DNA of 64,000 nucleotides from Nymphaea colorata (Eukaryota > Streptophyta > Magnoliopsida > Nymphaeales > Nymphaeaceae), in the NCBI RefSeq assembly GCF_008831285.2, contig NC_045143.1, positions 6,645,503 to 6,709,502 on the forward strand. Reading direction: 5' to 3'. The position numbers and the translations under genes were made by a program. Position 1 is the stretch's first letter; each line of letters opens with the position of its first letter. Below, piece by piece: positions 5,618-54,126 of this stretch. The notes under the pieces are model-generated. The model worked only from the letters and a program-made list of their open reading frames with translations. It had not been told where the DNA came from and did not search any database.

Positions 5618-8812
<3,195 letters not shown>

Positions 8813-18178: not shown

Positions 18179-20456
18179 AATCTCTCCCTCTTTTAAATCT
18201 TTCTTACTCTTTTATTAATTTCTCTGTCTTTTTTGTTTCTCTTTTCCTTTTTCTCTATCTTTTTTTTTATCTCTTTCACCCTTTTCATTCTTTTCATTTT
18301 TCTCATTCTCTCTATTTCCCTTTTTCTCTACTTTTCTCTCTTTTGAAATCATTTTTCTCATATTTTTAATTTCTCTTTGATTTTTAATATATCTCTCTCT
18401 TACATATATTTTAATTTCTACTTCCCTCATTCTTGACTCTTATCTCTCTCGTTTTAATATCTCTCCCTCTTTCATTCTCTCTTTTTTCTCATTTTTATTT
18501 TTTTTCTCACTCTCCTTCTTTTTATTCTCTATTTGTTTTCATTTCTCACCCTTTATTTTACTCTATTTATTTTTTCTTTTTCTTTTTCTTCTATTTTTCT
18601 ATTTTTTTCTTATCTCTCAGTAGCTCTTTCTTTCAAGTTTGATGGCTCGTAGATGTGTATTACAATGGCGATGATTTGGTGTGAGATATCTTTCTTATTT
18701 TCATTATTTTTGAGGTACATGTTCAACCCCAAAGAACTCCTAAATAAGTTTGATGTATATGTTAAATTGCATTGAGCGTGTCATTTTTTATTTTCAAAAT
18801 GCAAATTTACCTCACCTAAACTTTTAAACAAACCATTGAGATGAAAGTTTATTCCACAATACAAATCAAAATCTAATTTTATATCATCCATATGAATATT
18901 TTTCTTTCAACATTTTCTATCAATTTCATATAAATATGCATGAACATGCACAAGCACACACCATCACTTCACCAAACACAAATGGAATAATGAGTGCACC
19001 TCTTATTAAATTCTAAAGATGACAAGACTAAATCCTATCTAGGTAGAAACCGAAATAGGATTAAGTCTTCACCCTTCATCAGAATTCGAAGGAAACACTT
19101 TTCCATATTATTATATTTCCTCCATCTTTTCAAAAAACTTGATTTTCAAATATTCTCCTTTTCAAACTTTTGTAAATAATGCAAAGCCAATGCGCTTTTC
19201 TTCGTCCCTCTAATTGAAAATTTTATCTTCCAAAACAAAGCTTGAAAATCTTTTCTCTAAAAAACATGACACTTTGAAGACGTGATTTGCAAAACAAGCA
19301 ATTTATAAATATGTTTAATTATACTTTCTCAAATAAGTTGAAAACCTTAGATTTTCAAAAAACTATTTTTGAATGCAAATTCTCTTTTACACATGTGTTA
19401 TAATGGTAATATTATAAAAACCCAAATGATTTTCAAGTATACATTTTTCAACAATGCATTTTCTAGTCCACCTAAGAATTCTAATTTTCTAGCTCATCTT
19501 ACTAAGATTGCAATTATTTGGGGTTTATTAAAATACCCAAAGACCATGATTCTATCATCTAAAAACTATATTTTGAAGCAAACCTCATTTAATCTTTTTA
19601 GAAATTTTTCTCAATCTTTTGATAATTTTGCTGAACTTGAGTACATAAGCATAGGGCTTAAAGATATAACTAAAAAATGTTGGAATGTGTAAAGCAAAGA
19701 TACTAATTCTTTGTTGGGTTAACTTCAATAAAGACGTGAGAACCATCAGACCTCGTATCGACTGTCAAGTCCATTTCAACCATTTTTCTAAACAAAAGCT
19801 TACTTTTTAACACACTTGAAAAACAAAAATCAATTTCTGGTTGCACACATGTGCCTTATATGCAACCGCCTATCATAGTTGGCAAGTCCGTGACTCTGAC
19901 TTGGATTGGCAAATGATGACTGGTGCAGCAAGTTGACTTTTGACTTGTTAAGTTGATTCATCGACTCAGTCGAGTTTTAAAATAACATGAATCAGACGAG
20001 TCAGCCTGAGTTAGGAGCGAGTCAGGCCAAGTCAAGACGTGTTTGGGGGTGAGTCCGGGGTGAGCCAGGCCAACCTTGACTTGTGGCCAAGTTTTTTAGC
20101 GATTCAAGCTGGCTCGGGCAATTCCTGAGCCAACTCGAGGAGTCAGCCAACTATGCTGCCTGCCCCACCAACTATTGGATTACATATCAGTCTAAAGACA
20201 TTTGCATTATGTAGTATGAGATCACACATTTTTTTTCTTTGCCGACTCTCATGAGTGAACTGGGTGATTATGGATTTATAACTACAGGCATCATTCACTC
20301 AATGTATACACAACAATCGAATGGCAATAATGGCCGTAGCCCACTAAAACGTCGGCACGTGAACTTCTCACTTGTATTTAAAATTTTCCTTCGAAAGGAG
20401 ATTTGTGTTTTTATAAAATGTGCTGTTCACCTTCGCAAGAAAATTTTTCATAGGTG
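17590..20456 (+). repeat. R1 dispersed repeat, copy b, left part
   Basis: It aligns with 1-317 and 5618-8430 in the same order and orientation. It shares upstream similarity with about 62490 ('gtgtaattgagtt' versus 'atgtaattaagtt'), so the family extends further left than the part seen in copy a. A (CT)n tract lies at 18138-18175. This copy has no Copia-1 insertion and so shows the undisturbed site: 'ctcataaagtatgaagatc' near 17872 corresponds to 303-317 plus 5618 onward. Confidence 0.7.
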
Positions 20457-22160: not shown

Positions 22161-23540
22161 CATAAGTTTTGAGATAAATACTTCACATACAGCCGACCCA
22201 TAAAGCAGTGGTTGATGGAATCTTTCCCTACCATTTAAAAGACCATTATACCCTTAAAAGGAAAAAAATCTATTATTTAAAGAGTGAAATACCAAGTGGG
22301 GATTAGAGTAAAAAGCAATGTTGCTTGTAAAGACTTGACTGAGGAGGAACAGCTTTTGCTTTTGCTCTTAGTCACGTTGTTGCAAATCAGCAAATTAATC
22401 TGATCCGGTGAGTTTCATATTGGAAACTCGGTCGGGCTTCGATCGTTAAGCGGAACAGAGTAAATGCTGAATTTGCAACAACAAAAACAGTGATAAAAAA
22501 AACTCAAAAGTGGATTCCCTTGGTTTTCATTTTTTTCGCCTTTTATTATGAAGGAGAATAATAAATTTTCTAAACTCAAAACGGCTTCGTTCCTTCCTCA
22601 CTCCCTCTTTCTTGTCCTCAAACTTTGTTCAAATTTTGTTATGCATTCCCATGTAATAGTTTAATATAGTTTAATAGTCAACAATGAGATCTAATAAAAT
22701 TTTATTCTCATGTAAATTTTGTTATGCATTCCCATGTAATAGTTTAATATAGTTTAATAGTCAACAATGAGATCTAATAAAATTTTATTCTCATGTAAGT
22801 ACACAATACACACACTGCAAAGACCGACAAAATCTTGTTTTTCACCGTTGAAAGGACTCCCAACTGAGTCCATCTTTCGCTTTATTAAATGCTCAATAAT
22901 TAGCATTTCAGACCTACAAAAGTCCAACCAATGAGAAGCCTTTTCCGGGTTCAACTTTGTTCAGAAATGTAATCATCGGACTAGGGCCCGATCGTTTATC
23001 GAGTGTGAATCTTGATAACGGGCATATGCAATGCCCCTCATTCTCACTTTTGGCTGCTAAAGAATTTTAGGACATGTTTCCACTCAATCTTATTCTTTTT
23101 ACCATATGCATTGCTGGACTTACATGGACCTTGGTAAGGGTGCTTTTCGATCCCTTACTCACTTAAGTTAGCCAATGGCAGCTCCCTTTCATCTATCTCA
23201 TCCCCAATAAGACTGTTTCAGTTCCTCAAGCTGCCATGAATTTGAAACGGCAGATTCAGTCATTCAACAGGAACTGTAGGCCATTTGAATCGTCAAATAA
23301 ACGTCTAATCAAATCCCAAATTGTTATTAACTAAAACATCACACCCACATTGTTTTCATGCCAAATAATGTAGCACACAGGATTGTTGAAGAGAATAGTT
23401 GTTCTAACCGGTGATATAACATAAATGAGATGGCCTTTTTCAATGAGGTCGAAAGCCCTGAAGTTCGAAATATGATGAAACTAAAATGCAGAGTGGGGAA
23501 TTGATTGCAGCAGAAGAAAAAGCATGAACCATCTCTCCAT
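22161..23540. other. 3' flank of receptor-kinase locus A
   Basis: No gene seen. It holds the 83-bp tandem duplication at 22631-22796. From about 22800 the sequence is similar to 47947-48640 (shared 'atgctcaataattagcatttc' region and 'tatcgagtgtgaatcttg'), so it belongs to the segmental duplication and probably contains the 3' untranslated region of locus A. Confidence 0.55.
22631..22796. repeat. Perfect 83-bp tandem duplication
   Basis: Copy 1 (22631-22713) and copy 2 (22714-22796) read the same base for base from 'aaattttgttatgcattccc' to 'ttattctcatgt'. The absence of differences implies a recent slippage or unequal-exchange event. Confidence 0.92.
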
Positions 23541-23934
23541 TTAGATTCGAGGGGTATCATCAAAAGAATATTGGCTGGGCATAGATTCAGATATGGAGAT
23601 CTCGTCAGCCTGCGAAGTTTCCATCCTTAAGGCTGATTTCAGCGTACTTACAATCATGGGCATATCCGGTCTTCCAGCTGGACGTTGTGTGGCAGCCCTT
23701 GCAATCTCTGCTACCTTCCAGGCAGATTGGAGGTTACGCCGGCCCTTCAACAATGGATCAAGTAGATTCTCTATGTTCTCCCTCCTAAGCATAGGCACGA
23801 TCCATTCAGCGAGGGGTTGCATTCCTTTCGTTTCAGTGTTCATCATGGCAGGCTTCCCTGTTATGAGCTCAAAAAGAACTACGCCGAAACTGTACACATC
23901 ACTTTTTTTAGTGAGAGACTGTGTCTGCAAATAC
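23541..23934 (-). CDS. Locus A last exon: kinase C-lobe and tail
   Basis: The exon starts after the acceptor GGCAG at 23935; its first G completes the Glu codon of DPEY. It encodes [20 protein letters not shown], the C-lobe signature with the invariant Asp of DVYSFG, then FELITGKPA and a Ser-rich tail ending at TAA 23541-23543. 131 codons, no internal stop. The paralogous exons at 42780-43070 and 48640-49020 are broken. Confidence 0.9.
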
Positions 23935-26900
23935 CTGCCGATAAGCAAAAGTTGGTTAAAAACTTAAACGAGTTCATCCGGTCAATGATATGCTTTGTGT
24001 AGGTACATTTTCATGGAGAAATATAGCAAAAACAATTTTTAAATGTAAATAGACAAAATGATCAAAACCACAAATTCTCATAAGAATTATATATATATAT
24101 ATACAACTGCCGTCACGAGTACCATACTCAATGTTTTGAGTTTTTTTCTGAAATACATGGACACGACATCTATGCCAAAAAACATGTACAAGAATCAATG
24201 TCTCTGCGATCTGTGGATCAAACAGAAAAGTTGTTTTGATGATCTGACAATAAGATAGTGGAAACTAAACACAAGACGCATACAGTTTTCTGATATGGAG
24301 TCCAATGAGAAAGCAGGTGCAGGAAAATCAAGCGTAGGAGCAGACAAAAACTTTGAGTGGACTGGATGGAATTTTCTAATGCACCACATTGAACTTTATC
24401 CTCATGAGAAAAATGACAAAAATGAATGGAGGAAAATGACATACTCAGGATCAATGTATCCCTTTGTGCCAGCAACTTTGGTTTGATAAGCTGTATGCTC
24501 TGTTCCATCTACAGCTCCAGCTTTGGACAACCCAAAATCTGCTAATTTGGCTTGCAGTTTTTCATCCAATAGAATATTTGCGGGTTTGATATCTCTGTGA
24601 ATGATTGCTGGACTGCATCCCGTATGCAGATATTCCAACCCTGCAGTTCAGCAGTGGGTTTACCTTATTAAGGGATAGTAATAGTAATCAAGGCAGGGAA
24701 AGGCTGATGGAGCCCTATATACGAACCTGTTGCAGCGTCTAGTGCTATCTCCAGTCGTTTTCTCCATGTCAACTCGCTGGCCCTAGCTGCTTTGTACAAA
24801 GTGATGACATCCACTTAAAATTAAGAAGTTTAATGTACAGTTCCTTTCAAATGTAAAGGATAACATTCAGGCAGTTTCTGCAAGCCTTGAATTCTGGCGG
24901 AAATTCATTCACTGGAAAGCCAGATGGTGTGCATATTTGTGGAATTGCTGACCCAGCAGGTTGTTGGTATTTCAAAAAATTGGCGATGATTTTCAAAAAG
25001 TGCATAAGAATTGCGTTGCAACAATTGAGTACCTATTCAAGGTTTAAGGAATGAGTAGAAAAGGGCAATTTAACTGATACTTAGTCAGACCCCTTACAAC
25101 ATTCTGACTGGAGTTTCATACCTTCCAATTTCCCAAGGAGACTTCCATTCGCCATGTAATCGTACACAAGTATTAGTTCATGTCGTTCTTTGCATAAGCC
25201 GACTAACGAGACCAAGTTCTTGTGATGGATTTTCACCATAATCTCTAACTGCAACAAGCCAAGGGTTGGGCAGTTACACAACATGTAATTATAAACTTAC
25301 TTATCAGTACTTACAACTAATCTTCCCTTTTCTGTCAAGAAGAAAGTTCCATTCTTTTACTTAATTGTGCCAAGCACCACGTGAAAGCAACTAACATATA
25401 AGCATGCACCGTGATTGTAAAAAGCAAGTACAGAATTTTATGTGCACACAGAGATGCAGATAAATACCTCTTTGAGGAGGCTGGAAAATTGTGAGCCGGA
25501 CTCTCTTAGTTTCTTGACAGCGACCTTAAGACCATTTTCAGGTAGCTCGCCGTAATAGACGGTGGAAGACCCTCCTTTGCCGATGACCCGACCGAAGTTT
25601 CCGGTAATGCTCAGGATCTCGTTGTAGGCAAATTGACGTGGAGCCGCCGCCAACAGCACTTCGCTTGCTGCAGACCTTACTGATTTTTTAGCTGCAGAAG
25701 TTGTTCCTTGGGCGGCGGTTCCATTGCCTGTCTCTGCCCATGCTGATTGAGCTTCCAGCGAACGACTGACCCCCGTTCCTTTAACAGGGAGAAAGAAATT
25801 GTGAGACCGGTAGAGACTAGAGAGTGAATGCAATTTGGTTGCTGGCTGATTCGACGGCCATTTTTATGATGCCATTTATCTCTTTTCAGTTATATTTAAA
25901 AATAATTTAAGATATTTTATATTTTTCATTAAAATGCAGTCACTTATTTCGAGAATAAATTATTAGCTTACACAAAGATATTGATTGGAGTCAAACACAA
26001 AAGACCATACTTCAATTTAATTTGATGAACCCGTGGAAAAACTGTTTTAATTTTGTTTTATAGGAAATTAACAATTCACCATTCACAAAAAAAACACTAA
26101 AATTCCTCTACATTCGTTCTTGCTTTTGGGTCTTGGATGCATTGAGGCTTACACTCGTCAATTAAAGTGCTGTGATTCTACTGTTTATAGTTTAGAGAAA
26201 TAATACTTACCTGAATCAAATCGACAAACAAATGCATGCTCGACCAGCTAAGCTATTTTAGTTTTATTGTGTTTTTAAATATTAAAAAAAGAGATTACAT
26301 CTCTTGGTCTTGCAGCTAATGGCTGGCCAGTGGTCGTTTCACTCAAAATAAACTAAAGATGAATGTGAAACTCGTTTACTAAAAACATGAGATTTTTTAG
26401 CGGCGAAAATTAAAGATATCAAGAGTTGATGACCCTATATCAATTTGACCGATGGTGTTTTTTTTATAATTTAGTACTGGCTTTTCATTAATGACCTTCA
26501 ATTAAAAAAAAGAAAAAAGAAAAAAACCTTAGGGTATGTCTTATTGCCTACTTTTTCAAGATGGATTAATCTTAAAATTGTTTCTGAAGAACTACTGACA
26601 GATTTCAAATATTTAATTGAAAATCAAGAAAAGCCATACCTATCTGAACTGTGAAACACAACCTAAAAAGTAAAAACACACAAAAGAAAGTCTAAGGGTA
26701 GATGACCAAACCGCTGTTTTCAGTATTGTTCACGTTGTAAGTAAAGTTAACAGTTGCAGGCGCCGGCTTTGTTCTCTTGGTTGTTCCTGGACCTGACACT
26801 TCGCTAGCTGCATGGCATGTTGATTCTTCATCTGCAGAAGTTGATTGTTTTCCGGCGGTTCCATTGCCCGCATTTGCCGGACCTGCTTGAGCTTTCACCG

Positions 26901-29900
26901 AGTGACGCATGGCCGTTCCTTTAACAGGGAAAGTGGGAGATTGTGTGAGAGAGAGAGAATGCAATCCGTAGATTCGATGGCCATTTTTATGATGCCATTT
27001 GTCAGTTTTTAGTTATATTTTAAAATAATTTACGATATTGTATATTTTTTTGTTAAAACGCAGTTGCTATTTCAAGAATAATCAGAAAGATATTCATTGA
27101 AGCTGAAGATAAAAGTGCAGGCAATATGTTTAACCCTCTCAATAGAAGCCCTGAAAAAACTGTGGGTGAGTGGGATGTTAAAAATTCAGGCCTGAGAAAG
27201 AGATCCAAAGTAATTCCTATTCTCCATTGCCTCCAGGTTTTACTATGCGTCGAATTTGGGTGAGGTACGGTATCAAGTATGAAAGTGAACTGATCATGTG
27301 CCTTTTATGCCATCGGGGTAATAGAACCTACAACAGTCAAACTTACCACGTTTCTTTTATGCAACCGCCGATCACCAATGATATTTTGGTTTTAGTTTTG
27401 TTGTGTTCACTGTTTTAAATAAAAAATAAAAATGATATTTCCTCTCGCAGCTCATGGCCGGCTGCCGGTTGTTTTGCTCAAAATAAACTCGAGGAAAATG
27501 TGCAGCTCATTCAGTAAGATGGTTTTTCCAATCATCAAACATGAGATTTTGTGGACTAATATTAAAGACCTTAGATCAAATGGATCGATTGTGTGTTTTT
27601 TTTTTCTGTATTTTTTTATATAATTTGGCACTGGCAGTTGCTTATTGACGTTCAATTGGGGGGGGGGGGGAAAGCTCAGGATGTGTTCTATTGCCTAAAA
27701 AGCTTTTCCAGGTGGCTTCATCTTGAAATTGTTTTTAAGTGCTAAGGCCATGATTAGGAATCTCGTTCAATCAATTAATTAAAGAGTAAATAGCAGCTTA
27801 ATTACCTGGTTGATTAGCATATCCTTTTGCTGGCTTCTGCTTGTACTTTCGCCAGATGGCGACTCCGATTAATCCAATCACTGGGACGGCGACCACGACG
27901 GCCACGACGGCCCCTACTATGGTGCCGATTGGCGTCTTTCCTTCACCGTCACCTTCCGATTCAAAATGGTATAGCAAAAGTTTGTCAGATACATAGTGAT
28001 ATTAGAGTCTGGCTGTAATTGCTCACGTTCAAGGAGAAGCAGCCATTGATCAGGATAGACTGTAGAAGTTGGTTGATCTGGAGCTGGGCTCCAGTCTTCT
28101 ACGCTTGGCCTGAACAAAAAGTCAAGGTTGATCGAGGCAGAGTTCATAGCAATCTCTGCCTCAGCACCTCCAAGCAGTATAGAAAACCTCGCTTATAGAA
28201 AAATTGTTTCACAAAGGAAACAGTAGGGTTGTGAACATATTACCTTGGGACTGCTGAAATTGTTGAAACAGTGAAATAGGCTGCACATATAGGCCCCATA
28301 AAACCAGTGTTTATAGCTACACTTTGAAATTGTCGAAATATATTTTCGATGTGAAGTGTGCTTAGTTCTTAGTTTGGCAGTAAGTATACTTTGTAAACGT
28401 TTTATGAATTTGACCTGAAATGCAGATTTATGAAACACATGTTCTAATGTTTTATGAACCTGCCCTAATCTTTAAGTCAACTTCATGAACCTTCACATGG
28501 TTTACCTTCTGCCAAACAACCTCTTAAAATCTGTTGCCTACTAAACACCCCAAGTTAAATACCTTCTGACGTTAGTGGAAAGAGAGGCCTTAAAAATCAC
28601 TAATGGGAAAGTAAAGTAGTGGCTGGATTCCAGAATGTTGATAAAATCCAATAATTAATGTGGTAGGCCTTGTGAAAAGACTTGACTGCTGATTGTCTTA
28701 AAGAGAAAGTGATCACATTTTATATTGACGGTTTCCCTGCATAAACATAATTACTGGTGACAACATGAAATAATTGACTATACTCACATAATAGCTAGAG
28801 ATTTTCCCCTGTTGAAAATCTTAAAAACATTAATATAAATATATGTTACCAGATATATGAACAAAAAATTCTTGCCAAGAATTCAGACAACAAGAGGCTG
28901 ACATTTTGTCTTGTAAAATCTTTGCCACACGAAGAAAAACGTCTTTGTAGCTTCATTGTTGCCTTCTTGTGGGGAAGAACATTACATTTGTATGGTTAGT
29001 TTCATTTAAAGTCATTTACCCATAGGAAGCCGGGGCAGAACCAGAAACTTTTGGTTACTGTACACTAGTTATAAAATTTAAAATTTTTAAGAAACACTAA
29101 TACATAAATGAGAAAAATTTTCTTGAAATACCAATATAAAAATATGAATTTCTGTGCGTCTATGTGGGCAACTGCCCACTGCCACACTTGCCTCTGCCTC
29201 TGATCGGAAGAAAGGTTTTTGTTTTTTTAATTCTTTTCTTCTGTTAAGATGTTCTTAAAATAAATTCATCATTTTTTCCTTTATCCTGCTACTGATCGAC
29301 TCAAGCTAACCTCTAGCTTTTAAGTTATTTGGATGCGAACTAGGCAGATGAAAATTGAATATGTCGACAGACAGAAAAAATAATAAACGGATTTGGAAAA
29401 CTTAAATTGCAGATTTTGAACAATGGTGAAAAGTGCTATAGCTGGGTTCACTACGCCGAAGCTGTTCAAGGTGGCCTCTCTCTGCACTACTTATACGTGA
29501 AGCACGTAGGAGCTGGAATGGCTAGCAAAAACAACCCACCTTCACCTTTTGAGTCTGTTGTTGTTGGGACTGGATTATCAGGTGGGGGAGGAGGCGGAGA
29601 TCTGCGTGATCCATAATTTCCAGGTGAAGGACTGCTCTGCGGGGCAGGCGGTGGAGCAGCCGATTCCGGAGGGGAAGGCGGTGAAGCAAGCGAATCCGGA
29701 GGGGCAGGCGGGGAATCAGGCGGCAGAGTAGGCAGATATGGAGGCGGTTCTCCTGCCGGGGAAGGGCTGCTTGGTTCAGGTTCAAAACCTAGTAGTGAAA
29801 GTAGGTTATGCACTATGGACAAGAACGACTTTAATGCACAGCATTGATCAAAGGCAGAGACATTGTTGCTGATGAAGATCACAGCATGGTAAGCAAAAAC

Positions 29901-30574
29901 GGACAACACAGCAGCTACCAAATCATGTTATCAAATCAAGAAAGATAAACCGATGCGGTTAATTTTAGGGGCCACGGCGGAACAACACTAGCACTGTAAA
30001 TCTTTTTTCCCTGTCGATACTGACGGGAAATTAAATGGCCATGTGGTTCTGATCGATGTCTACCACCAAAAACAGGGATGCACAACGAGTCGTGAGCCAA
30101 CTTGGGATCACCAGCGCTGGTCGATGAGTCCAACCGAAACATTTGCAAAGTCGTAGCTAGCCGGAAAATCGACGATCCTGTCCTCGTTTTCCTTTACATT
30201 TTCCGTGAACACTTGCCACTTACTTTTTTCCGACTTTGGTATTCTTCTTCTTTTTTTTTTGGACAAATAATAGCATTAATACCAGAGGAATGGAACCAAA
30301 GGAATTTCTTTTAGACAGGAAATTATTTTTCTTCCATTTCAAAAAGGCCAAAAAGCATTTTTTAAAAAATGTTACATCAAATTTATATAACAGTTTTGAA
30401 CATGCAACTATGTTAGAATAGGAATTCATTTGAAGAACCTTTTTTTTGAAAATTTTTGAATGTCAACTCCAGGTTTCATATATATTGAGAAGATTTTGCA
30501 CCGACTTTAGTTAGAAGAAAGGAAAATTAAAGCTGGTTTACAAATGGAATTTTATGAGTCAAACAAATTTAATG

Positions 30575-30610
<36 letters not shown>

Positions 30611-32306
30611 ATATGACGTTCAATTTTAGATCAAATGACCTAGATCTCCCCTCTTCTCGTGAATCTCTCTCTCTCTTTATCTCTCTGCTTGCAAGGGGCC
30701 ACCTAGCGGCTCCTCCCCTACCATCGCAGACAGGCCCACCGTGCACTGTAGCTGTGAAGACCACCAGGGAGGAGCTTATGAGGCTTCCCTTAGCAAGGGA
30801 TAGCCACCAAGCCTTTCCCTCATAATGACACTTCTATTTCTAAGATCAACACTGCTTTTTCACACCATCAAAATAGCATTCCTGAAGAATTAAACTGAGG
30901 AAAGAATTAAACTGATGATGTAGCTATAACATGCCAACCCGTTGCGCTACTGATATGTGTGTGTGTGTGTGTGAGATAGAGAGAGAGAGAGAGAGAGAGA
31001 GGTTCCAATGAAAAAAAGGAGGAGGAGAGTAAAGAAGGGAGGGAAAGGCTATAGACCTGGGCCATCCGAGTAAGAGTGGGATAGTTCAGATTAGATATGC
31101 TTAGAAATTTAGATTAACTGAGAGCCAGCATACATAAACTACATGTAGGTTATTTAAGGGAAGTTTTTTCATGGGTATTATTAAGCAAAGTTCATCGTTA
31201 AAATATCAGTAAATTTTTAAAATTAAAATATACTTCAGGTAAGAGTAAAGTAAATCGAAACTAATGAAAAGACATTAAATACTACATAAAATGATAAGAA
31301 TGGAATTTTAATGATAATGACAATTTAATTTAAGTTTAAATGCAAATTTGTGCTAACATTAAAGTTTATGAATTCAACATTAACGTTTAAAAATATATAA
31401 AAAAAAAAAGAAAAATTCCGTGGCAAATTTATTTTCCAAAAATGTAACCTTCTCGTGTTTTTCATGTTTACTCTGTTGGTCAGGTTTTTATCAACTGCCT
31501 AGCCCACTCATTATGGCCATTCAATTTATGGTGATGGACGGTTAAGACGAAAAGAAGGAGACAAAAAATGACTGTTTTTTTTTTCTTTCAACTATTCATC
31601 ACTAAATTGATCGCATCACTCTCATGACTGGGATGGATGATTTTGGATAATCAATGTCACTATATCAGGAGAACAGGCTTTAATTATATATACATATATA
31701 TAAGACATGGGGAGACGGTCATGATTAAGAAATAATGCATGTGGTTTGGGTGCTAATTGGAAGACCCGCACCAAATGGTGGGGACTTGCTTTTAATTCGA
31801 AATCGTCTCCTTCAAACTCAAACTCCTAATTGATTCCACAAACTCGTTGGCAGTTGTAAAAATGAATCCCTCAAAATTTTCAAAATGACTCCAAAGAAAC
31901 CAAGTGTCAAGTTTCAAAATTTAATTTCATGAAGTAAGCTTAATCATTTTCAAAAATCTACTGATTTTTCGTTTTCATGTTAGAAACTAGCCTCATGGCC
32001 AATCATAACTTGTGCTGCATGCACAAAAGCATCATACAATATTGCAGATTACTTTGCACGCCCCAGCCAAGAATTAGGACGTCCAATTCTCCAAAGCAGA
32101 AAGCCGAAACAATAACACGCAAAATTTCAGTTCTGGTAGTAGATCTCACCAAATTGGCCATCAACTACAGAGGCGAAGAAGAGAACCGCAGCGATCCAGA
32201 ACGAGAAGAGGTTCCGCTTGACATGGATCACCATTGCCGAGTTGCCTCCGCTCTTGATCATGATGAGGTCGCAAGCATCGTGAGCAGGATAGGAAAGACA
32301 AGCCAT
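23541..32306 (-). CDS. Receptor-like protein kinase, locus A (multi-exon gene model)
   Basis: Exons read leftward: signal peptide 32150-32306; proline-rich exon about 29600-29921; juxtamembrane ectodomain exon 28027-~28173; transmembrane exon 27806-27952; kinase exons 25468-25778, 25122-25248, 24727-24786, 24445-24640 and 23541-23934. From the transmembrane exon to the stop every junction is GT-AG and the phases join with no stop. Joins among the first three exons are not proven. The kinase matches the LRR-I (malectin/LRR) subfamily of plant receptor kinases, which phosphorylate Ser/Thr at the plasma membrane. No malectin-like domain or leucine-rich repeat was found in the 4 kb between the signal peptide and the membrane segment, so the ectodomain would be short and proline-rich. 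Loss of the ectodomain, making this a recent pseudogene, is the main alternative. Confidence 0.6.
24445..24640 (-). CDS. Locus A kinase exon: catalytic and activation loops
   Basis: It reads [20 protein letters not shown], then [20 protein letters not shown] and an activation segment ending [11 protein letters not shown]. The HRD Asp and DFG Asp are present and the Arg before the HRD Asp makes it an RD kinase. The donor is GA|GTATGT at 24444, the acceptor AACTGCAG at 24641. 196 nt, phases fit both neighbours. Confidence 0.92.
24727..24786 (-). CDS. Locus A kinase exon: hinge/alpha-E region
   Basis: A 60-nt exon encoding [18 protein letters not shown], the 'L.W..RL.IA.DAA.GLEYLH' block of plant receptor kinases. 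Acceptor AAAGCAG at 24787, donor CAG|GTTCGT at 24726. The equivalent exon is intact in locus C (about 49328-49387) although the rest of that kinase is not. Confidence 0.88.
25122..25248 (-). CDS. Locus A kinase exon: N-lobe beta 4-5 and hinge
   Basis: It reads [19 protein letters not shown] followed by [20 protein letters not shown], typical of receptor kinase subdomains IV-V. Acceptor TTGCAG at 25249, donor GAAG|GTATGA at 25121. The 127 nt leave one base, completed by the next exon. Confidence 0.9.
25468..25778 (-). CDS. Locus A exon: cytoplasmic juxtamembrane plus ATP-binding lobe
   Basis: After the acceptor TTAAAG it starts [11 protein letters not shown] and has a Ser/Ala/Thr-rich juxtamembrane stretch, then [20 protein letters not shown] and the lysine of KVAVKKL. 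The glycine loop reads GKGGSS where GKGGFG is usual, so the third Gly is Ser. Donor AAAGAG|GTATTT at 25467. 311 nt, in phase with the transmembrane exon (Q-P-G split codon). A second, truncated copy of this exon lies at 26692-26918. Confidence 0.9.
26692..26918 (-). CDS. Truncated duplicate juxtamembrane exon (A2), possible alternative terminal exon
   Basis: It has the same acceptor context (CTGTTAAAG|GAACGG) and start phase as the functional exon at 25468-25778. It encodes [20 protein letters not shown]..., ends [10 protein letters not shown] and stops at TAG 26692-26694, just before the glycine loop. Splicing the transmembrane exon to it would give a receptor with a ~75-residue cytoplasmic tail and no kinase. 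Similar truncated copies lie at 51650-51770, 52710-52945 and, partly, 37676-37770. Whether it is used or is simply a decayed duplicate cannot be told from sequence. Confidence 0.55.
27806..27952 (-). CDS. Locus A transmembrane exon
   Basis: It encodes [20 protein letters not shown] then [21 protein letters not shown] 22-residue Val/Ala/Ile-rich helix is followed by a basic stop-transfer (WRKYKQK), placing the kinase in the cytoplasm. Acceptor CGGAAG at 27953, donor CCAG|GTAATT at 27805. 147 nt, phase 1 to phase 1, compatible with both flanking exons. Paralogues: 38370-38501 and 54127-54246. Confidence 0.88.
28027..28173 (-). CDS. Locus A ectodomain exon next to membrane segment
   Basis: The frame reads [38 protein letters not shown], then donor GAAC|GTGAGC at 28026. 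A 74-nt intron separates it from the transmembrane exon, and the split Arg codon fits. The SASI-L-FLF...EDWS.APDQ pattern is kept in the B and C copies (38576-38730; about 54345-54460), which supports coding. No known domain recognised. The 5' edge is uncertain by a few bases. Confidence 0.6.
28174..29486. other. Intron of locus A with old MITE-like insert
   Basis: Mostly AT-rich with no exon recognised. At about 29030-29212 a block opens GGGGCAGAACCAGAA and closes CTTGCCTCTGCCTCTG, imperfect inverted ends of the type seen in plant miniature elements. The same block is at about 39428-39604 and 55200-55378, so it was there before the cluster duplicated. Confidence 0.5.
29487..29921 (-). CDS. 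Locus A proline-rich ectodomain exon
   Basis: The frame starts with a hydrophobic stretch ([20 protein letters not shown]), then [20 protein letters not shown] and about 75 residues rich in Pro and Ser with PPAPP, SPSPA and PPPPPP runs, as in extensin-like cell-wall segments that become hydroxyproline-glycosylated. The frame runs on to a stop at 29487, but a donor (GGTGG|GTTGTT, near 29530) probably ends the exon. The B copy (39861-40262) keeps the whole frame and the C copy (55620-55944) keeps the core. Both exon edges are inferred. Confidence 0.55.
   Translation of the reverse strand: MVAAVLSVFAYHAVIFISNNVSAFDQCCALKSFLSIVHNLLSLLGFEPEPSSPSPAGEPPPYLPTLPPDSPPAPPDSLASPPSPPESAAPPPAPQSSPSPGNYGSRRSPPPPPPDNPVPTTTDSKGEGGLFLLAIPAPTCFTYK
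29936..30230 (-). other. Block conserved in all three ectodomain copies
   Basis: The block around 'gatgagtccaaccgaaacatttgcaaag' recurs at about 40480-40510 and 57090-57120 at the same distance class from the proline-rich exon. On the minus strand one open frame reads [16 protein letters not shown] in A and B and [15 protein letters not shown] in C. It may be another short exon or a conserved intron element; no domain was recognised. Confidence 0.35.
30584..31001. repeat. Microsatellites in locus A first intron
   Basis: (TA)n at about 30581-30606, (TG)n at about 30955-30971 and (GA)n at about 30975-31001. Locus B has much shorter forms at the matching places (40931-40940 and 41241-41256), so the tracts changed length after duplication. 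The rest of 31002-32149 is AT-rich intron with no exon recognised. Confidence 0.85.
32150..32306 (-). CDS. Locus A first exon: signal peptide
   Basis: The first ATG at 32304-32306 ([14 protein letters not shown]) is followed by a second at 32232-32234 starting [20 protein letters not shown], a basic n-region and hydrophobic core ending ASVVDGQ, a classical secretory signal. The second ATG gives the more usual signal peptide. The exon ends QFG before donor GTGAGATC at 32149. In malectin/LRR receptor kinases the first exon ends in the same way and the next continues into the malectin fold, which was not found here. Three paralogous first exons exist (42387, 45770, 59500). Confidence 0.75.
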
Positions 32307-36570: not shown

Positions 36571-37675
36571 GAAACACTGATGCAAAAATACATATAGAAT
36601 ACATTATTATTTTATATGAGCTACAGCTGCATTATTTTCCAAATGCTTTCTTCAAATTCTCTTTTAAATATATGGCTTTCAAGAAAGTGCCTGGAGGAAG
36701 TTGAAGGAGCAAGAGAACTACTAAGTAGGGCCTGGAAAAGAATCCCCTACTTTGTGTGTCATGCTCTGTAACGATTGCAATTGGCTGGATAATGAGCACT
36801 TGGGTTCAAGTTGCTACCTTTTCTCCAATTTCTCTGTGGATATCCAACAGAATGTTTTACTAACAGAGGAGCTTTCCTTTTCCTTCTCCTTCCTCAACAA
36901 AGAAGTGTTACTATTCACTTTAAGTATGCACTTGAAAGATTATGTTATATTGATTGAAATATCCTTTTTTGACGGCTATTTCTCTTTTAGTTTATGCAAG
37001 GCAGGGGTATGAGTATGGACCAGTGCAGCTTTCAGTATCTGTGATACTGAACACGATAATACGCAAGTTGTGGCTTCAATTCTTACATGAAGGTGCGGTT
37101 TATGAACACTGAATATCTATGTAGAAAAGATTGTAAAACTGATGTCCCTGTCAATAACATGCCCATACACACAAAGAAGGGTGGAGGGAGAGAGAGACCA
37201 ATTGCAGATGCATGACACTATGCGTGTCTAGTAGAGTGATTTTCTTGCTGATTTATCATTTTAATTATGAGCTTTCTTTTTTATTTGCAGATGGAAAGTC
37301 ATGAAAGAGAAAAAAGATGAAGAAGTAGGTGAAGCTAACTTATGTTTAAATAATGAGTTTTTATATATATATATATATATAAAGAGAAAAAAAGAAAGAA
37401 AGAAAACTATTGCTTCATCTTGGCTATTCAAACACTTTTTTGAGTATTCTTATAATAGAACAAGAGATTTTAAGAAACATTGGACATGACAAATAAGGCA
37501 CAGATAGAGATAAAACAAACGTTGGACATATAGAACATTGGACATATAGAACATGCTGTTCATTCTTAAAACTGTCAAACAATAGATGCCTTGTGTATTC
37601 TGTTTTATGATACAGCTATCAAACTATTAGATGACAAAGCCATGTTGTGAGTAGTGTTCGGGTAGCAATGAAAGT
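36571..37675. other. Intergenic between gene-fragment island and locus B
   Basis: AT-rich, with a short frame (LEEVEGARELLSRAWKRIPY near 36690) that hints at a helical-repeat protein but is too short to assign. A (TA)n run lies at about 37363-37381. Homology to the kinase cluster resumes at about 37676. Confidence 0.4.
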
Positions 37676-37770
37676 TAACAGGTGCAGGCGCCGGATTTGT
37701 TCTCGTGGATGTTCCTGGACCTGACACTTCGGTGGCTGCATGAAATCTTGATTCTTCAGCTGCAGAAGTT
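37676..37770 (-). pseudogene. Remnant of truncated juxtamembrane exon in locus B
   Basis: The frame reads TSAAEESRFHAATEVSGPGT then NPAPAPVNF, matching exon A2 (26692-26918). Its 5' part, including the splice acceptor, is deleted: at 37771 the sequence jumps to the equivalent of about 27255. So locus B has no usable intracellular exon after its transmembrane exon within this window. Confidence 0.7.
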
Positions 37771-46464: not shown

Positions 46465-47738
46465 TGAGCAGAGGGCGGTGGGCCAACTACTCGGCCTACA
46501 TTATTGCTGGATGAAACCATACCAGTTTCCCCACGCCATTAACTTCAACATGTTCCCTTCCGATTGACTTGATCGCTTGAACAGTGAACTTATTGGTCTC
46601 CCTGTTACATCAACTACTAGCAAAATCTGGACTTGTTTTTCTATTAGAAGACCAAGCTTGCAGGCCCTCGACTCAAACTCTAGGTCACTTGCTCATAATA
46701 GAAGTGTTCACGAACCAAAAGTGGGCGTCAGCCCCTTAGCCTAACAACTAGTGTGTTCTGAAGCTCAACCACAGGTGACCATGCTGGCTTAGAGGAGAGT
46801 GAGTTGCTTGCACCATCAGATACGCACTCTCAAAAAAGAAAAAAAGAGTGGGATATTTTTGAAAATGCTTCGAAAAAAAATGTCTTTTTAAAATTTTTTT
46901 AACTACCATTTTATTGGTATTTTTAATACCCCACTTTCTACCGACCAAAGGTATTTTATTCATTACATACGCCAATACACGATTCATTAAGCACTAATGT
47001 AACGAGCATGGATCCTAAAAGCCCTGTCGGTGTTCAATGGGGAGGGGTGCTGGATGTGTGGTGTACCACCACAGTTGGACCCTTAGCCCATCACATGGGT
47101 GGGCCGTGAGCCATTAAGATGCACCGTCTTTCATTAACCTTGTGGAGCAGTGTTTGGACGTGCCATTCCATTACGTGTAAGTACCAAGAACACAAGGTAA
47201 AAAATGACACGTCCCTATATAATCAATCGGGTATATAAATACTATCCAAGCACTGATTGAGTCAAGAATTTAGGCGGAGGCACTGATATATAATTTCAAG
47301 GATAAGTCTTTGCTTGTTTTGTTCGTTTTCTAGTATAGTCAACTGCATGGATGTGATCTTGATAAGCAAACAGTATGTAAGCCAATGATTCATATAAAAT
47401 TATATTCTTATATAAGTGCACACTTACAATCAGTTTTTTTTAGCTTATAAAACTCGTTTTGCATGCCCAAACAAATATGATGGTTATGTTGTTCATAACT
47501 TTAGGCATGAAGAACAAATTTAGATAACTAGTTTAATGTTTGGAAAATAAGTAAAAGTATGGTCAAGGATTGGCATGCAAACATTGTGAATTAAAGTAAC
47601 AATTATATTCTTAACTGTACTACCAAGATTTAATACAAGTTTAATAATCAACAATCAGATCGATTTTCTTAGCTTATTATGATATTTATGTTCTTCATAA
47701 TCATAGGCGTGCGCGTGCATATACACACATGCACACAG
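46465..47738. other. Upstream region of B' and intergenic DNA
   Basis: 46465-47200 aligns with 32367-33058 (shared 'ggtgaccatgctggcttaga'), the region upstream of locus A. 47200-47738 is AT-rich with no gene or repeat recognised apart from TA- and CA-rich words. Confidence 0.5.
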
Positions 47739-47888
47739 ATGAACGACCCTCGTTAGGTGGCTTAGTGACTTTGGATATCTACAGTTACAATTCACTCACT
47801 TCATATCTATATATATATACATATGAAGTGAGTGAATTGTAACTGTAGATATCCAAAGTCACTAAGCCACCTAACGAGGGTCGTTCAT
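47739..47888. repeat. Perfect 68-bp inverted repeat (hairpin)
   Basis: Arms 47739-47806 and 47821-47888 are exact reverse complements, from ATGAACGACCCTCGTTAGG inward to CACTTCATAT, with a 14-base TA-rich loop. The arms have ordinary composition, not simple repeats. It could be a fold-back transposon, a recent inverted duplication, or the source of a hairpin RNA. Exact arm identity implies a young event or active correction. No obvious target duplication flanks it. Confidence 0.95.
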
Positions 47889-47946
47889 ATGATGTTGATG
47901 GATGGTTGAGAGAAAAATATTGGAGAAAAATGGTGAGATCTAAAAA

Positions 47947-49439: not shown

Positions 49440-51188
49440 GGAAACAAAATAATGAAAATAAGAAAGTTATCTCACACCAAATCATCGCCATTGTAATACA
49501 TATCCACAAGCCATCAAAGTTGAAAGAAAGAGCTACTGAGAGATAAGAAAAGATAGAAAAATAGAAGAAAAGAAAAAGACAAAAAAGAAACAAAAAAATA
49601 GATAAAGTAAAATAAAGGGTGAGAAATGAAAACAAAAGAGAATAAAAAGAAAGAGAGAGAGAAAAAAAAGGAAATGAAAATGAGAAGAAAGTGGGAGAGA
49701 TATTAAAATGAGAGAGATAAGAGCTAAGAATGAGACAAGTAGAAGTTAAATTTTTTATTTTCAAAATGCAAATGTCTCATCTACCCCATTGCAATAATTT
49801 ATTCTCTTTTACCTTGTCCATGGCTCACCCAATCTTTTAAACAATCCGTTGAGATGAAAATTTATTCCTCAATAAAAATCACAATCTAATTTGATATCAT
49901 CCATATGAATACTTTTCTTTCAACATTTTCTATAAATTTCATATAAATATGCATGAACACACAAGCACACACCATCACTTCACCAAACACAAATGGAATA
50001 ATGAGTGCACCTGTCATTAAATTCTAAAGAAGATAAGACTAAATCCTATCTAGGGAGAAACCAAAATAGGATTAAGTCTCAAACCTTCATCAGAATATAA
50101 AGGAAGCACTTTTCAAAATTATTATATTTCCTCCATCATTTCCAAAATCAAGTCCTTCTCAAAAATTTTGTAAATATTGCAAAGCCCCTCCACTTTTCAT
50201 TGTCCCTCTAATTCAAAATTTTTATTTTCCAAAACAATGCTTGAAAATCTTTTCTCTAAAAACCATGACACGTTGAAGACATGATTTGCAAAACAAGCAA
50301 TTTATAAATATGTTTAATCATACTTTCTCAAATAAGTTAAAAACCTTAGCTTTTCAAAAAATCTATTTTTGAATGCAAATTCTCTTTTACACATGAGTTC
50401 TAATGATAATATTATAAAAACCCAAATGATTTTAAAGTATACATTTTTCAACAATTCATTTTCTAATCCACCTAAGAATTCAAATTTTCTAGCTCATCTT
50501 ACTAAGACTGCAATCATTTGGGGTTTATTAAAATACCCCAAAGACCATGATTCTATCATCTAAAAACTATATTTTAAAGCAAACCTCATTTAATCTTTTT
50601 AGAATTTTTTCTCAATCTTTTGATAATTTTGCTGAACTTGAGTACATAAGCATAGGGCTTAATGATAACACTTAAAAATGTTGGAATGTGTAAAGCAAAG
50701 ATACTAATTCTTGGTTGGGTTAACTTCAACAAAGACATGAGAACCATCAGACCTCGTATCGACGGTCAAGTCCATTTCAACCATTTTTCTAAACAAAGCT
50801 TATTTTTTAACACACCTAAAAAACAAAATGGGTTGCCCACATGCCTTATATGCAACCGCCTACCATAGTTGGCAAATCGGACTTGGATCAGCAGAGGACA
50901 ACTGGTGCACTGGGTCAGCGACTTGACTCATCGACTTGTTGAGTTGATTCATCAATTCGATCGAGTTTTAAAATAACATGAATCAGGTGAGTCAGGCCTG
51001 AGTCAGGCTGAGTTAGGAGCGAGTCGGGCTGAGTCAAGACGTGTTTACGGGCGAGTCAGGGGTGAGATAGGCCAACCTTGACTTGCGGCCAGGTTTTTCA
51101 GCAATTCAAGCTGGCTCGAGCGATTCCCGAGCCAGTTGGTGAATCAGCCAACTATGCAGCCTGCCCCACCAGCTATTGGATTACATAT
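49440..51188. repeat. R1 dispersed repeat, copy c, internally inverted
   Basis: 49440-49745 is the reverse complement of R1 (as at 6190-6665), while 49748-51188 runs in the forward sense (as at 6735-8160). About 70 bp that should join the two parts are missing. Copy c lacks both ends of R1. It replaces the kinase N-lobe exons of locus C, with sharp edges at about 49430 and 51188. Confidence 0.75.
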
Positions 51189-51640
51189 CCTCTTGCAACT
51201 CATGACCGGCCACCGGTTGTTTTGCTTGAAACAAACTAAAGATCAATGTGCAACCCATTTAGTAAAGATGGTTTTTCCAATCGTCAAACACGGCATTTTG
51301 TAGAGGCAAATATTAAAGATATTGAAGCTGAAAACCCTATATTAATTTGACCCATAGTGTTTTCTTCTTATGTTTCCTGTAATTTGGTAATGGCTACTAC
51401 TGCTTATTGACCTTCAATCAAAAAAATAAAAATAAAAAGCTTAGGTTGCATTCTATTGCCTAAAAAGCTTCTTCAAGACGGCATAATCTTGAAATTGTTT
51501 TTCAAGAACTACAAATGGATTTCAAATATTTAACTGAAAATCAAGAAAAGCCATAAGTATCCAACACAACCTTAATGCAAAAAAGAAAAAAAAGAAAAAC
51601 ACAGACCGAGGAAAGTCTAAGACTAAATGACCAGACAAAA
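51189..51640. other. Intron-type repeat unit of locus C
   Basis: It aligns with 26285-26640 and 27430-27720 ('ctcatgrccggccrccggttgtttt' type sequence). The same stretch recurs at 52305-52640 and 53590-53900, so each truncated exon copy is followed by a similar ~0.4-kb intron piece: a tandem array of about 1.1 kb per unit. No coding. Confidence 0.6.
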
Positions 51641-51775
51641 GTTTCCAGTACTTTGACACTTCGCTAGATGCATGCCTTCAGCACAGAAGTGGTTCCTTCC
51701 GCGATGGTTGCGTTGCCTGCTTTTGCGCGAATGCTGAAGCTTCCACCGAGTGATTCCCCGCCGTTCCTTTCAGAA
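51641..51775 (-). pseudogene. Truncated juxtamembrane exon copy C1
   Basis: It keeps the ASSEVSKY-type end and the 'gtctggtcatttag' stop context shared with A2 and C2, and starts near CCGTTCCTTTC (acceptor side). An internal stop and length changes disrupt the frame. Confidence 0.6.
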
Positions 51776-52710: not shown

Positions 52711-52945
52711 GAGGCTAGATGACCAGACCTAAGTTTTTGGTAATGCTCCGGATACGACTGTCGGTAAAGTGACATTCAGCTGCAGCCACTAGCATCGTTC
52801 CGTCGGTTGTTCTATTACTTGACACTTCGCTAGTTGCATGGCTTCCTGATTCTTTAGCCGGTGAAGTTGTTTCTTCTACAGCACTTCGGTTGCCTACATT
52901 TGCTGGCGCTGCTGGAGCTTTTATCGAGGGATGCACCACCGTCAC
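52711..52945 (-). pseudogene. Truncated juxtamembrane exon copy C2
   Basis: The frame reads TVVHPSIKAPAAPANVGNRS, then KESGSHATSEVSSNRTTDGT and IRSITKNLGLVI before TAG, the same end point (just before the glycine loop) as exon A2. The splice acceptor region is replaced by (TA)n/(GA)n at 52951-53012, so it is unlikely to be spliced in. Confidence 0.65.
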
Positions 52946-53012: not shown

Positions 53013-54126
53013 AGCCAATCGGTGGCTGACCGATTCGATGGCCATCGTTATGATGCCATTGGCCAGCTTGTAGTTATATTTTACAATAATTTAAGATATT
53101 TTATATCTTTTTCAAAAACAAGCTCGCTGGAGGATAGGCCTCCTACCTTTTATTAATGAAGATGATGACAGATGTGTCATGTTTTTGGTTGAAATGCAAT
53201 GACCTAGTTCGTGAAGAAACTGTGTCGTGGCTTATAGAAATCACTTGATTGGAGTAAAAACAAAAGTCCAGGCAATATGTTCAACCCTCTCAACAAGTGG
53301 CATTTCACTTTATTTTACTCAAGTCATGAAAAAATGATTTTAATTTTGTTTTTCTGTGAGTGAAAGGTTAACAATCCACCACTCATAAAAGAGATCTATA
53401 ACCTTTCCCGTGTCCCCTTGCCTTTAAGTTTTGGGTTTATGATACTCCCATCAACTAAAGCACTATTGTGATTCTACTGTTTACAATCCATGAACATGAG
53501 GATCTAACCAACTACATGCCTTCTAACCAACTATGGTACATTAGTTTTGTTGTGTTGACTGATTCATACATACAAAGAGAATGTATCACTTCCTCTCTAT
53601 GCTCATGACGTGGCATGCTCCAGTTGTTTCGTGCAACTCATTTAGTGAAGGATGGTTTTTCCAATTATCAAACTTTGGATTTTGTACAAGGAGAACATTA
53701 AAGATATCAAGAGTTGAACACTCTATATCAGTTTGACCAGTGGTGTTGTTTTCTTATTTCTTTTCATAATTTGGTACTGGCTGCTTCCTGTTGACCTTCA
53801 ATCACAAAAATAAGGCTTAGGCTGTGTTTTATTGCATAAAAAGCTTTTTCAAGGTGGCTTGATATTGAAATATTTTTTAAGAACTAGGGACGGATTTCAA
53901 ATACTTAACTGCAAAATCAAGTAAAACAATACTTATCTACCCCATCAAACACGGCCTTAACAAAAAATAAAAAATAAAAATAAAAATAAAACGCACCAAA
54001 GAAAGTTTAGGGCTAGAGGGGAACAACATGGCAATCCAAAGCAGATGCATATGGCTTCTTAACCACAGAGGCCCCCGATTAGGAATGTCGTCGAGCTAAT
54101 TAAATAGTATGTACCAGCTGAATTAC
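53013..54126. other. Third exon-array unit of locus C, exon lost
   Basis: 53590-53900 is the intron-type repeat, and 53995-54020 keeps only the 'aaagaaagtttagggctag' tail that follows exons A2, C1 and C2. The exon body is deleted. So locus C once had at least three units where locus A has two. Confidence 0.5.

Follow-up and report, generated by a model that had tools for sequence, protein, structure and literature searches.

A multiplied truncated juxtamembrane exon in a receptor-kinase cluster of Nymphaea colorata, a candidate alternative last exon for a kinase-less membrane protein

Kinase-less forms of plant receptors are known mostly as intron-retention variants or the products of separate receptor-like protein genes, and Dscam arrays encode extracellular parts and are spliced in a mutually exclusive manner. 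In TrkB.T1 an exon following the transmembrane and juxtamembrane exons encodes a short tail with its own stop codon, giving a kinase-less membrane receptor, as described in the accessible part of the source (PMC8934854). Splice variants of MtSERK3 and of other plant leucine-rich repeat receptor-like kinases (LRR-RLKs) stop before the kinase and resemble receptor-like proteins, according to the available portions of two reports (PMC3061892, PMC2817689). The present analysis concerns a truncated juxtamembrane exon, A2, in a receptor-kinase gene (gene A) of the plant Nymphaea colorata (genome of 407.8 Mb). The window, the whole stretch of DNA analyzed, comprises the 64,000 nucleotides at bases 6645503-6709502 of contig C6, and its minus strand carries a row of receptor-kinase copies, loci C, D, B and A. 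Judged from sequence statistics, A2 belongs to a family that may well represent a coding exon of long standing, probably used as an alternative last exon that yields a membrane protein lacking the kinase. The features of gene A are as follows (in motifs, a caret marks a splice boundary or the truncation junction).

Gene A, 23541..32234, minus strand: 520-amino-acid model, kinase by Pfam
Gene A exons, minus strand: 32234-32150, 29788-29546, 27952-27806, 25778-25468, 25248-25122, 24786-24727, 24640-24445, 23934-23541
Transmembrane exon of gene A, 27806..27952, minus strand: donor CAG^GTAATT, phase 1
A2, truncated juxtamembrane exon, 26692..26918, minus strand: GLVI frame ends at 26701, stop TAG at 26694-26692
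A1, full juxtamembrane/adenosine triphosphate (ATP)-loop exon, 25468..25778, minus strand

When loci A, B, C and D were compared, gene A was the complete gene model of the window. Its product has the composition of a plant receptor-like kinase, with a signal peptide, a Pro-rich ectodomain, a transmembrane segment and a Ser/Thr-Tyr kinase with HRD and DFG motifs (PF07714, E 2.4e-47) in one intact frame, the signal peptide and the transmembrane segment being judged by eye. A2 is located between the transmembrane exon and A1. The coordinates, shared acceptor and shared phase given for A2 and A1 by the first-pass annotation were right: both exons begin CCTGTTAAAG^GAACGG after a phase-1 junction, with an acceptor pyrimidine count of 17/22 in each. 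A2 is a copy of the 5' part of A1, follows the A1 frame to G-x-V-I and breaks off just before the ATP loop, so that it reads TAMRHS...GLVIYP-stop where A1 continues into the intact kinase. The two show 74% identity over 105 nucleotides of exon, and the likeness is not due to chance, because the match including upstream sequence covers 303 columns with an E value of 1.3e-48. If spliced in, A2 is predicted to give a product of 233 amino acids with a signal peptide, a Pro-rich stretch, a transmembrane segment and a short tail, without kinase, as had been proposed. The arrangement is that of TrkB.T1: an alternative exon follows the transmembrane exon, agrees in acceptor and phase with the exon that it would replace, and brings a stop ahead of the kinase.

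Further truncated copies, and the intron segment from which the stop appears to derive, were located as follows.

C1, truncated exon in locus C, 52718..52942, minus strand: open as far as GLVI, AG of the acceptor missing
C2, second truncated exon in locus C, 51626..51766, minus strand: acceptor kept, shortened and frame-shifted
B2, truncated-exon remnant in locus B, 37628..37770, minus strand: acceptor and 5' part deleted, 1-nucleotide deletion near the end
A2', truncated exon, C6 6613440
Intron segment after the locus C transmembrane exon, 53987..54017, minus strand: counterpart of what follows the truncation junction, source of the stop

A common end point of the truncated copies in the window had been claimed and was confirmed: A2, C1 and C2 align through GGTCAT(C/T)^TA(C/G) into TTAGACTTTC-like sequence (CTCAGACTTTC in C1), and the alignment of B2 to the junction reaches CATCTA. 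When A2, C1 and C2 were aligned with the introns following the transmembrane exons, what the truncated copies carry past CATC, resembling TAGCCTTAGACTTTC, proved to be intronic; locus C retains CTCTAGCCCTAAACTTTC after its transmembrane exon. Short profile hits to the unrearranged intron segment, individually weak (E 6e-6 to 0.88), were also obtained about 40-120 nucleotides after the transmembrane exon in five paralogues outside the window. On these alignments, the exon was broken off within its coding sequence, with the intron that precedes it joined on at the break, and the stop comes from that intron. The TAG of C1, C2 and A2' is TAC in A2, hence its YP-stop ending. In locus C, where amplification of an array unit had been noted and is real, the two copies are spaced about 1.1-1.2 kb apart, and the acceptor AG of C1 was lost beside a TA repeat.

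At least 15 copies of the truncated exon are present in one 250-kb cluster, namely A2, A2', B2, C1, C2 and ten copies in tandem within a further gene, gene X, outside the window. In whole-genome protein searches, every one of the 18 A2 matches fell within C6 6.61-6.86 Mb, as did the ten best A1 matches, and weaker A1 matches elsewhere in the genome covered the kinase part; a DNA profile run over selected stretches amounting to less than the whole genome found no further decayed copies. The order in gene X is transmembrane exon (6857815), T0, T1, T2, T3/T4, T5, T6, T7, T8, T9, T10 and full exon (6840308), T3/T4 being a single truncated exon interrupted by about 5.4 kb of other sequence. A recognizable junction was found in 14/14 copies examined, thirteen aligned across it and T4 by reading, with B2 matching to CATCTA. 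The residue before V-I is L or M in truncated copies versus R, Q or W in full exons (A1, A1' with TAA inside, F738, F747, F761 with TAG inside, F775, F796, F827 and X; a stop-bearing full-exon fragment lies at 6809021). In the tree the full exons form one group and the truncated copies fall outside it; basal support is weak (49/70 for the full-exon group). The shared junction and the L or M before V-I support the earlier suggestion that one truncated exon was itself multiplied.

The insert that splits T3/T4 (C6:6848300-6853760; L066, L067, L062) shows an apparent short target duplication and could help to date the array. Gene X itself (C6:6857650-6858800, L068) has signal-peptide and transmembrane exons, and the Pro-rich exon was not seen between them; its product may have almost no ectodomain.

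The reading frame is open to the junction in 12 of the 15 copies (T0, T1, T2, T3/T4, T5, T6, T7, T8, T10, A2, A2' and C1), T3/T4 being open in each half and T6 and C1 being open in spite of the loss of the acceptor and, in T6, of the 5' end. Nine copies (T0, T1, T2, T5, T7, T8, T10, A2 and A2') combine an AG acceptor with an unsplit open frame. In gene X alone 9/10 copies are open if the split T3/T4 and T6, shortened at its 5' end, are included; the gene resembles a Dscam-type array in that it holds homologous exons in tandem whose frames have been retained. Neutral simulation on the tree, with the substitution and indel habits of the A/B introns and the T7 sequence as ancestor, left a mean of 0.57 open copies and a maximum of 5 in 1500 runs, against the 12/15 observed. 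At half the indel rate the mean was 1.21 and the maximum 6, and with branches multiplied by 0.7 in addition they were 2.14 and 8. The probability of 12 or more open copies was 0.0007 with branches multiplied by 0.5 and half the indels, and 0.005 (mean 5.77) with no indels at all. T3/T4 counts as one open copy here (without it, 11/14 are open), and C2, B2 and T3/T4 were attached to the tree by hand with assumed branch lengths. For single lineages at a divergence of 0.185, the neutral chances of the open frames of A2 and C1 are about 5% and 3%, respectively. Gene conversion from full exons could have contributed to frame retention, an effect to which a test on sister pairs is less exposed.

Four sister pairs (T2-T7, T6-T10, T5-T9 and A2-A2') showed 34.5 changes at 196.5 synonymous sites and 60.5 at 619.5 nonsynonymous sites, giving an omega of 0.52 (bootstrap 95% 0.34-0.82, Fisher P 0.005); the three gene X pairs alone gave 0.46 (0.28-0.77). 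The codon tests omitted T3 and T4, the codon tree did not include C2 and B2, and T9 was used only up to its frameshift. Synonymous divergence resembled that of the flanks (0.15 for T2-T7 versus 0.09-0.21 in four local matches). Indels were rarer in the exons, with 3 in 863 columns, all in T5-T9, versus 57 in about 3230 flank columns (P 0.001), the 57 being approximate, as they were summed by hand over local alignments, some of them off the main diagonal. A global flank alignment, which was partly misaligned (divergence 0.4-0.5), had been dropped for the local ones. A2-A2' has no indel in 216 columns versus 4.3 expected (P 0.013). Better conservation of the first 80-165 or so nucleotides past the junction (27/324 versus 140/832) was a post hoc choice and was not used. 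Given that most frames were kept and that amino-acid changes and indels between sister copies fall short of expectation, the exon appears to have been both translated and under selection during much of its past. A coding exon under selection after truncation is favored because the sister pairs of gene X share truncated ends and flanks, and were thus copied as truncated units. Selective constraint, as judged from one genome, is clear for the family, not for A2 alone.

Several observations weigh against such a coding exon, and part of them would fit the truncated copies being decaying relics, intronic by-products of unequal crossing over that are unused, at least now in gene A. A2 and B2 differ at 27/150 sites versus 212/2655 in the A/B introns, with 2 synonymous and 17 nonsynonymous changes in 42 codons; the changes on their branches (5 in A2 and 14 in B2, versus 37 and 51 in the introns, Fisher P 0.30) are likewise as expected of relics. 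Positive selection on A2-B2 was considered and rejected, as the excess of differences lies in the last 44 nucleotides, beside the B2 breakpoint (12/44 versus 10/96). The A2-A2' pair gave an omega of 0.78 (P 0.445), so that amino-acid constraint is not seen for A2 alone; the acceptor was lost in four copies (C1, T6, B2 and T3), the frame is broken in three of the 15 (T9, C2 and B2) and the common stop was lost in T1 and T5. Under a transition-biased neutral simulation the nonsynonymous depletion had a P of 0.028, and a whole-tree maximum-likelihood codon model gave the truncated copies an omega of 0.82, a gain of 1.2 log-likelihood units over omega 1 that is not significant (kappa was fixed in the run at omega 1). 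Four full-exon sister pairs, which include the damaged loci A1', F761 and X, gave 0.79 (0.47-1.45), no stronger constraint, and therefore this stretch would be loosely selected even in its kinase form; the whole-tree omega of the full exons was 1.29, not significantly different from 1. The evidence for a coding exon is of a statistical kind, drawn from DNA rather than from RNA or protein, and its use as a last exon requires a polyadenylation site, still hypothetical, in the following intron. In the window alone, A2 looked neutral against B2 and C1 and thus relic-like; the family across the genome reversed that. The substitution pattern, which the first-pass annotation had named as a check, proved non-neutral for the family and neutral for A2 against B2 and for the amino acids of A2-A2'. 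With frame retention across the family and constraint in the sister pairs set against it, decay remains a serious possibility, which we nevertheless regard as doubtful.

Two other uses of the exon were considered. The GT in the last Gly codon could serve as a donor of an in-frame cassette (phase 1-1), which would lengthen the juxtamembrane linker, keep the kinase and leave the stop in the intron. The phase fits, the GT is there in 10/10 aligned copies, what is preserved is the frame rather than the stop, and T6 and T10 carry tcg^GTATGT with a donor score of 6. The same GT, however, is coding sequence in 8/9 full exons, the donor score is 3-5 in the copies other than T6 and T10, and the kinase is dead or missing in 4/5 of the loci concerned, which makes a cassette improbable. 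A2 could also belong to a poison exon that runs on to a donor further downstream, such as tag^GTATGG at 26640; the stop would then lie 51 nucleotides before the exon junction, and decay would lower the kinase mRNA. A donor of score 6 does lie at the same place after A2 and A2', but T2 and T5 have a related weaker site (taa^GTATGG, score 5), C1 has none there, and an open, constrained frame would not be needed; this use is very unlikely. A consistent strong donor downstream of the copies was not found, a weak GT shared with full exons being seen, and use as a last exon is the simplest because a strong donor is not consistently present after the truncated copies.

For the coding last exon, the following course is proposed. 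The starting event would have been a partial tandem duplication, a mechanism suggested by the junction itself, that fused the 5' portion of the juxtamembrane/kinase exon, as far as G-x-V-I, to the preceding intron; intron sequence would have supplied the in-frame stop. The truncated exon was then copied with its gene and within genes, to as many as ten in tandem in one gene. Splicing of the transmembrane exon to the truncated exon would end translation about 75 codons later, and the product would be a kinase-less membrane protein whose cytosolic part is a short tail and which might act as a decoy for, or a partner of, the paralogues that carry a kinase.

The other receptor-kinase loci of the window are listed below. 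The kinase is damaged or missing in 4/5 of the loci with truncated copies.

Locus C, 60020-47959, minus strand: receptor-kinase copy
Locus D, 46923-42843, minus strand: signal-peptide region and kinase pieces
Locus B, 42774-37628, minus strand: receptor-kinase copy

In locus A' the full exon contains a stop; in locus B neither the ATP-loop exon nor the exon after it gave a match; locus C lacks both of these exons and its last exon is frame-shifted; and the full exon of gene X has lost its 5' part and acceptor, its HRD reading QRG. In locus D, the piece that follows the ATP loop is interrupted by a stop. In seven loci (F738, F747, F761, F775, F796, F827 and the 6809021 fragment) the transmembrane exon is followed by a full exon without an intervening truncated copy, and the full exon, the part of the kinase examined, is open in 5/7. 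Kinase damage where truncated copies occur is a pattern, given here without formal test. The switch to a kinase-less receptor put forward by the first-pass annotation can therefore be proposed today for gene A only, and not for the other four truncated-exon loci. That the family is turning into kinase-free receptors by multiplying a truncated last exon, with gene X giving tails only and gene A a tail or a kinase, is a speculative and rather unlikely extension. If true, gene X, with ten diverged tandem tail exons and a dead kinase, would offer a choice of tail and no kinase. A dedicated truncated exon, a traceable junction, a surviving parental intron segment and a ten-copy array would show kinase-free output arising stepwise, in a signalling receptor gaining, and possibly being taken over by, such an output.

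Gene A couples a short Pro-rich ectodomain to its kinase; Pfam at E 0.01 gives the kinase alone, with no known ectodomain family (LRR, malectin-like or lectin) found. Among solved structures, the best matches of the N-terminal part of the kinase are a lectin-type receptor kinase and FERONIA. Downstream of gene A, an 85-nucleotide stretch is repeated in tandem at 100% identity (22631-22798). A near-perfect inverted repeat without spacer (47736-47891) has 78-nucleotide arms that are 97% complementary. A repeat of about 1.6 kb occurs in three copies (6500-8100, 18550-20200 and 49445-51190), two direct and the third also with inverted matches; the third sits in locus C at the place of two missing exons, the ATP-loop exon and the one after it. 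Scans of viral contigs gave 27 distant kinase loci (identity 26-44%) and no relative of A2, and one plasmid search with 401 bases gave no match. A literature search over titles and the openings of abstracts found no account of this cluster, and alternative transcripts are not mentioned in the accessible part of PMC2650789.

As compared with the described systems, the predicted use of A2 is like that of TrkB.T1 in that a short-tail exon with its own stop follows the transmembrane exon and gives a kinase-less receptor. TrkB.T1 is, in contrast, an animal tyrosine kinase with a single tail exon, known polyadenylation sites and a conserved tail of 11 amino acids, as far as the available part of PMC8934854 describes it, whereas the tail here is a truncated copy of the kinase exon itself, with up to ten copies in one gene. 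The likeness to MtSERK3 and other plant LRR-RLK variants lies in a plant receptor kinase with a product, here predicted, that ends before the kinase; MtSERK3, however, uses retained introns, and a dedicated duplicated tail exon is not described in the accessible portions of PMC3061892 and PMC2817689. With arthropod Dscam (PMC3364881, in its available part) gene X shares one exon multiplied in tandem inside the gene, with frames kept and copies diverged. Unlike those of Dscam, the copies of gene X end in a stop and encode a putative cytosolic tail.

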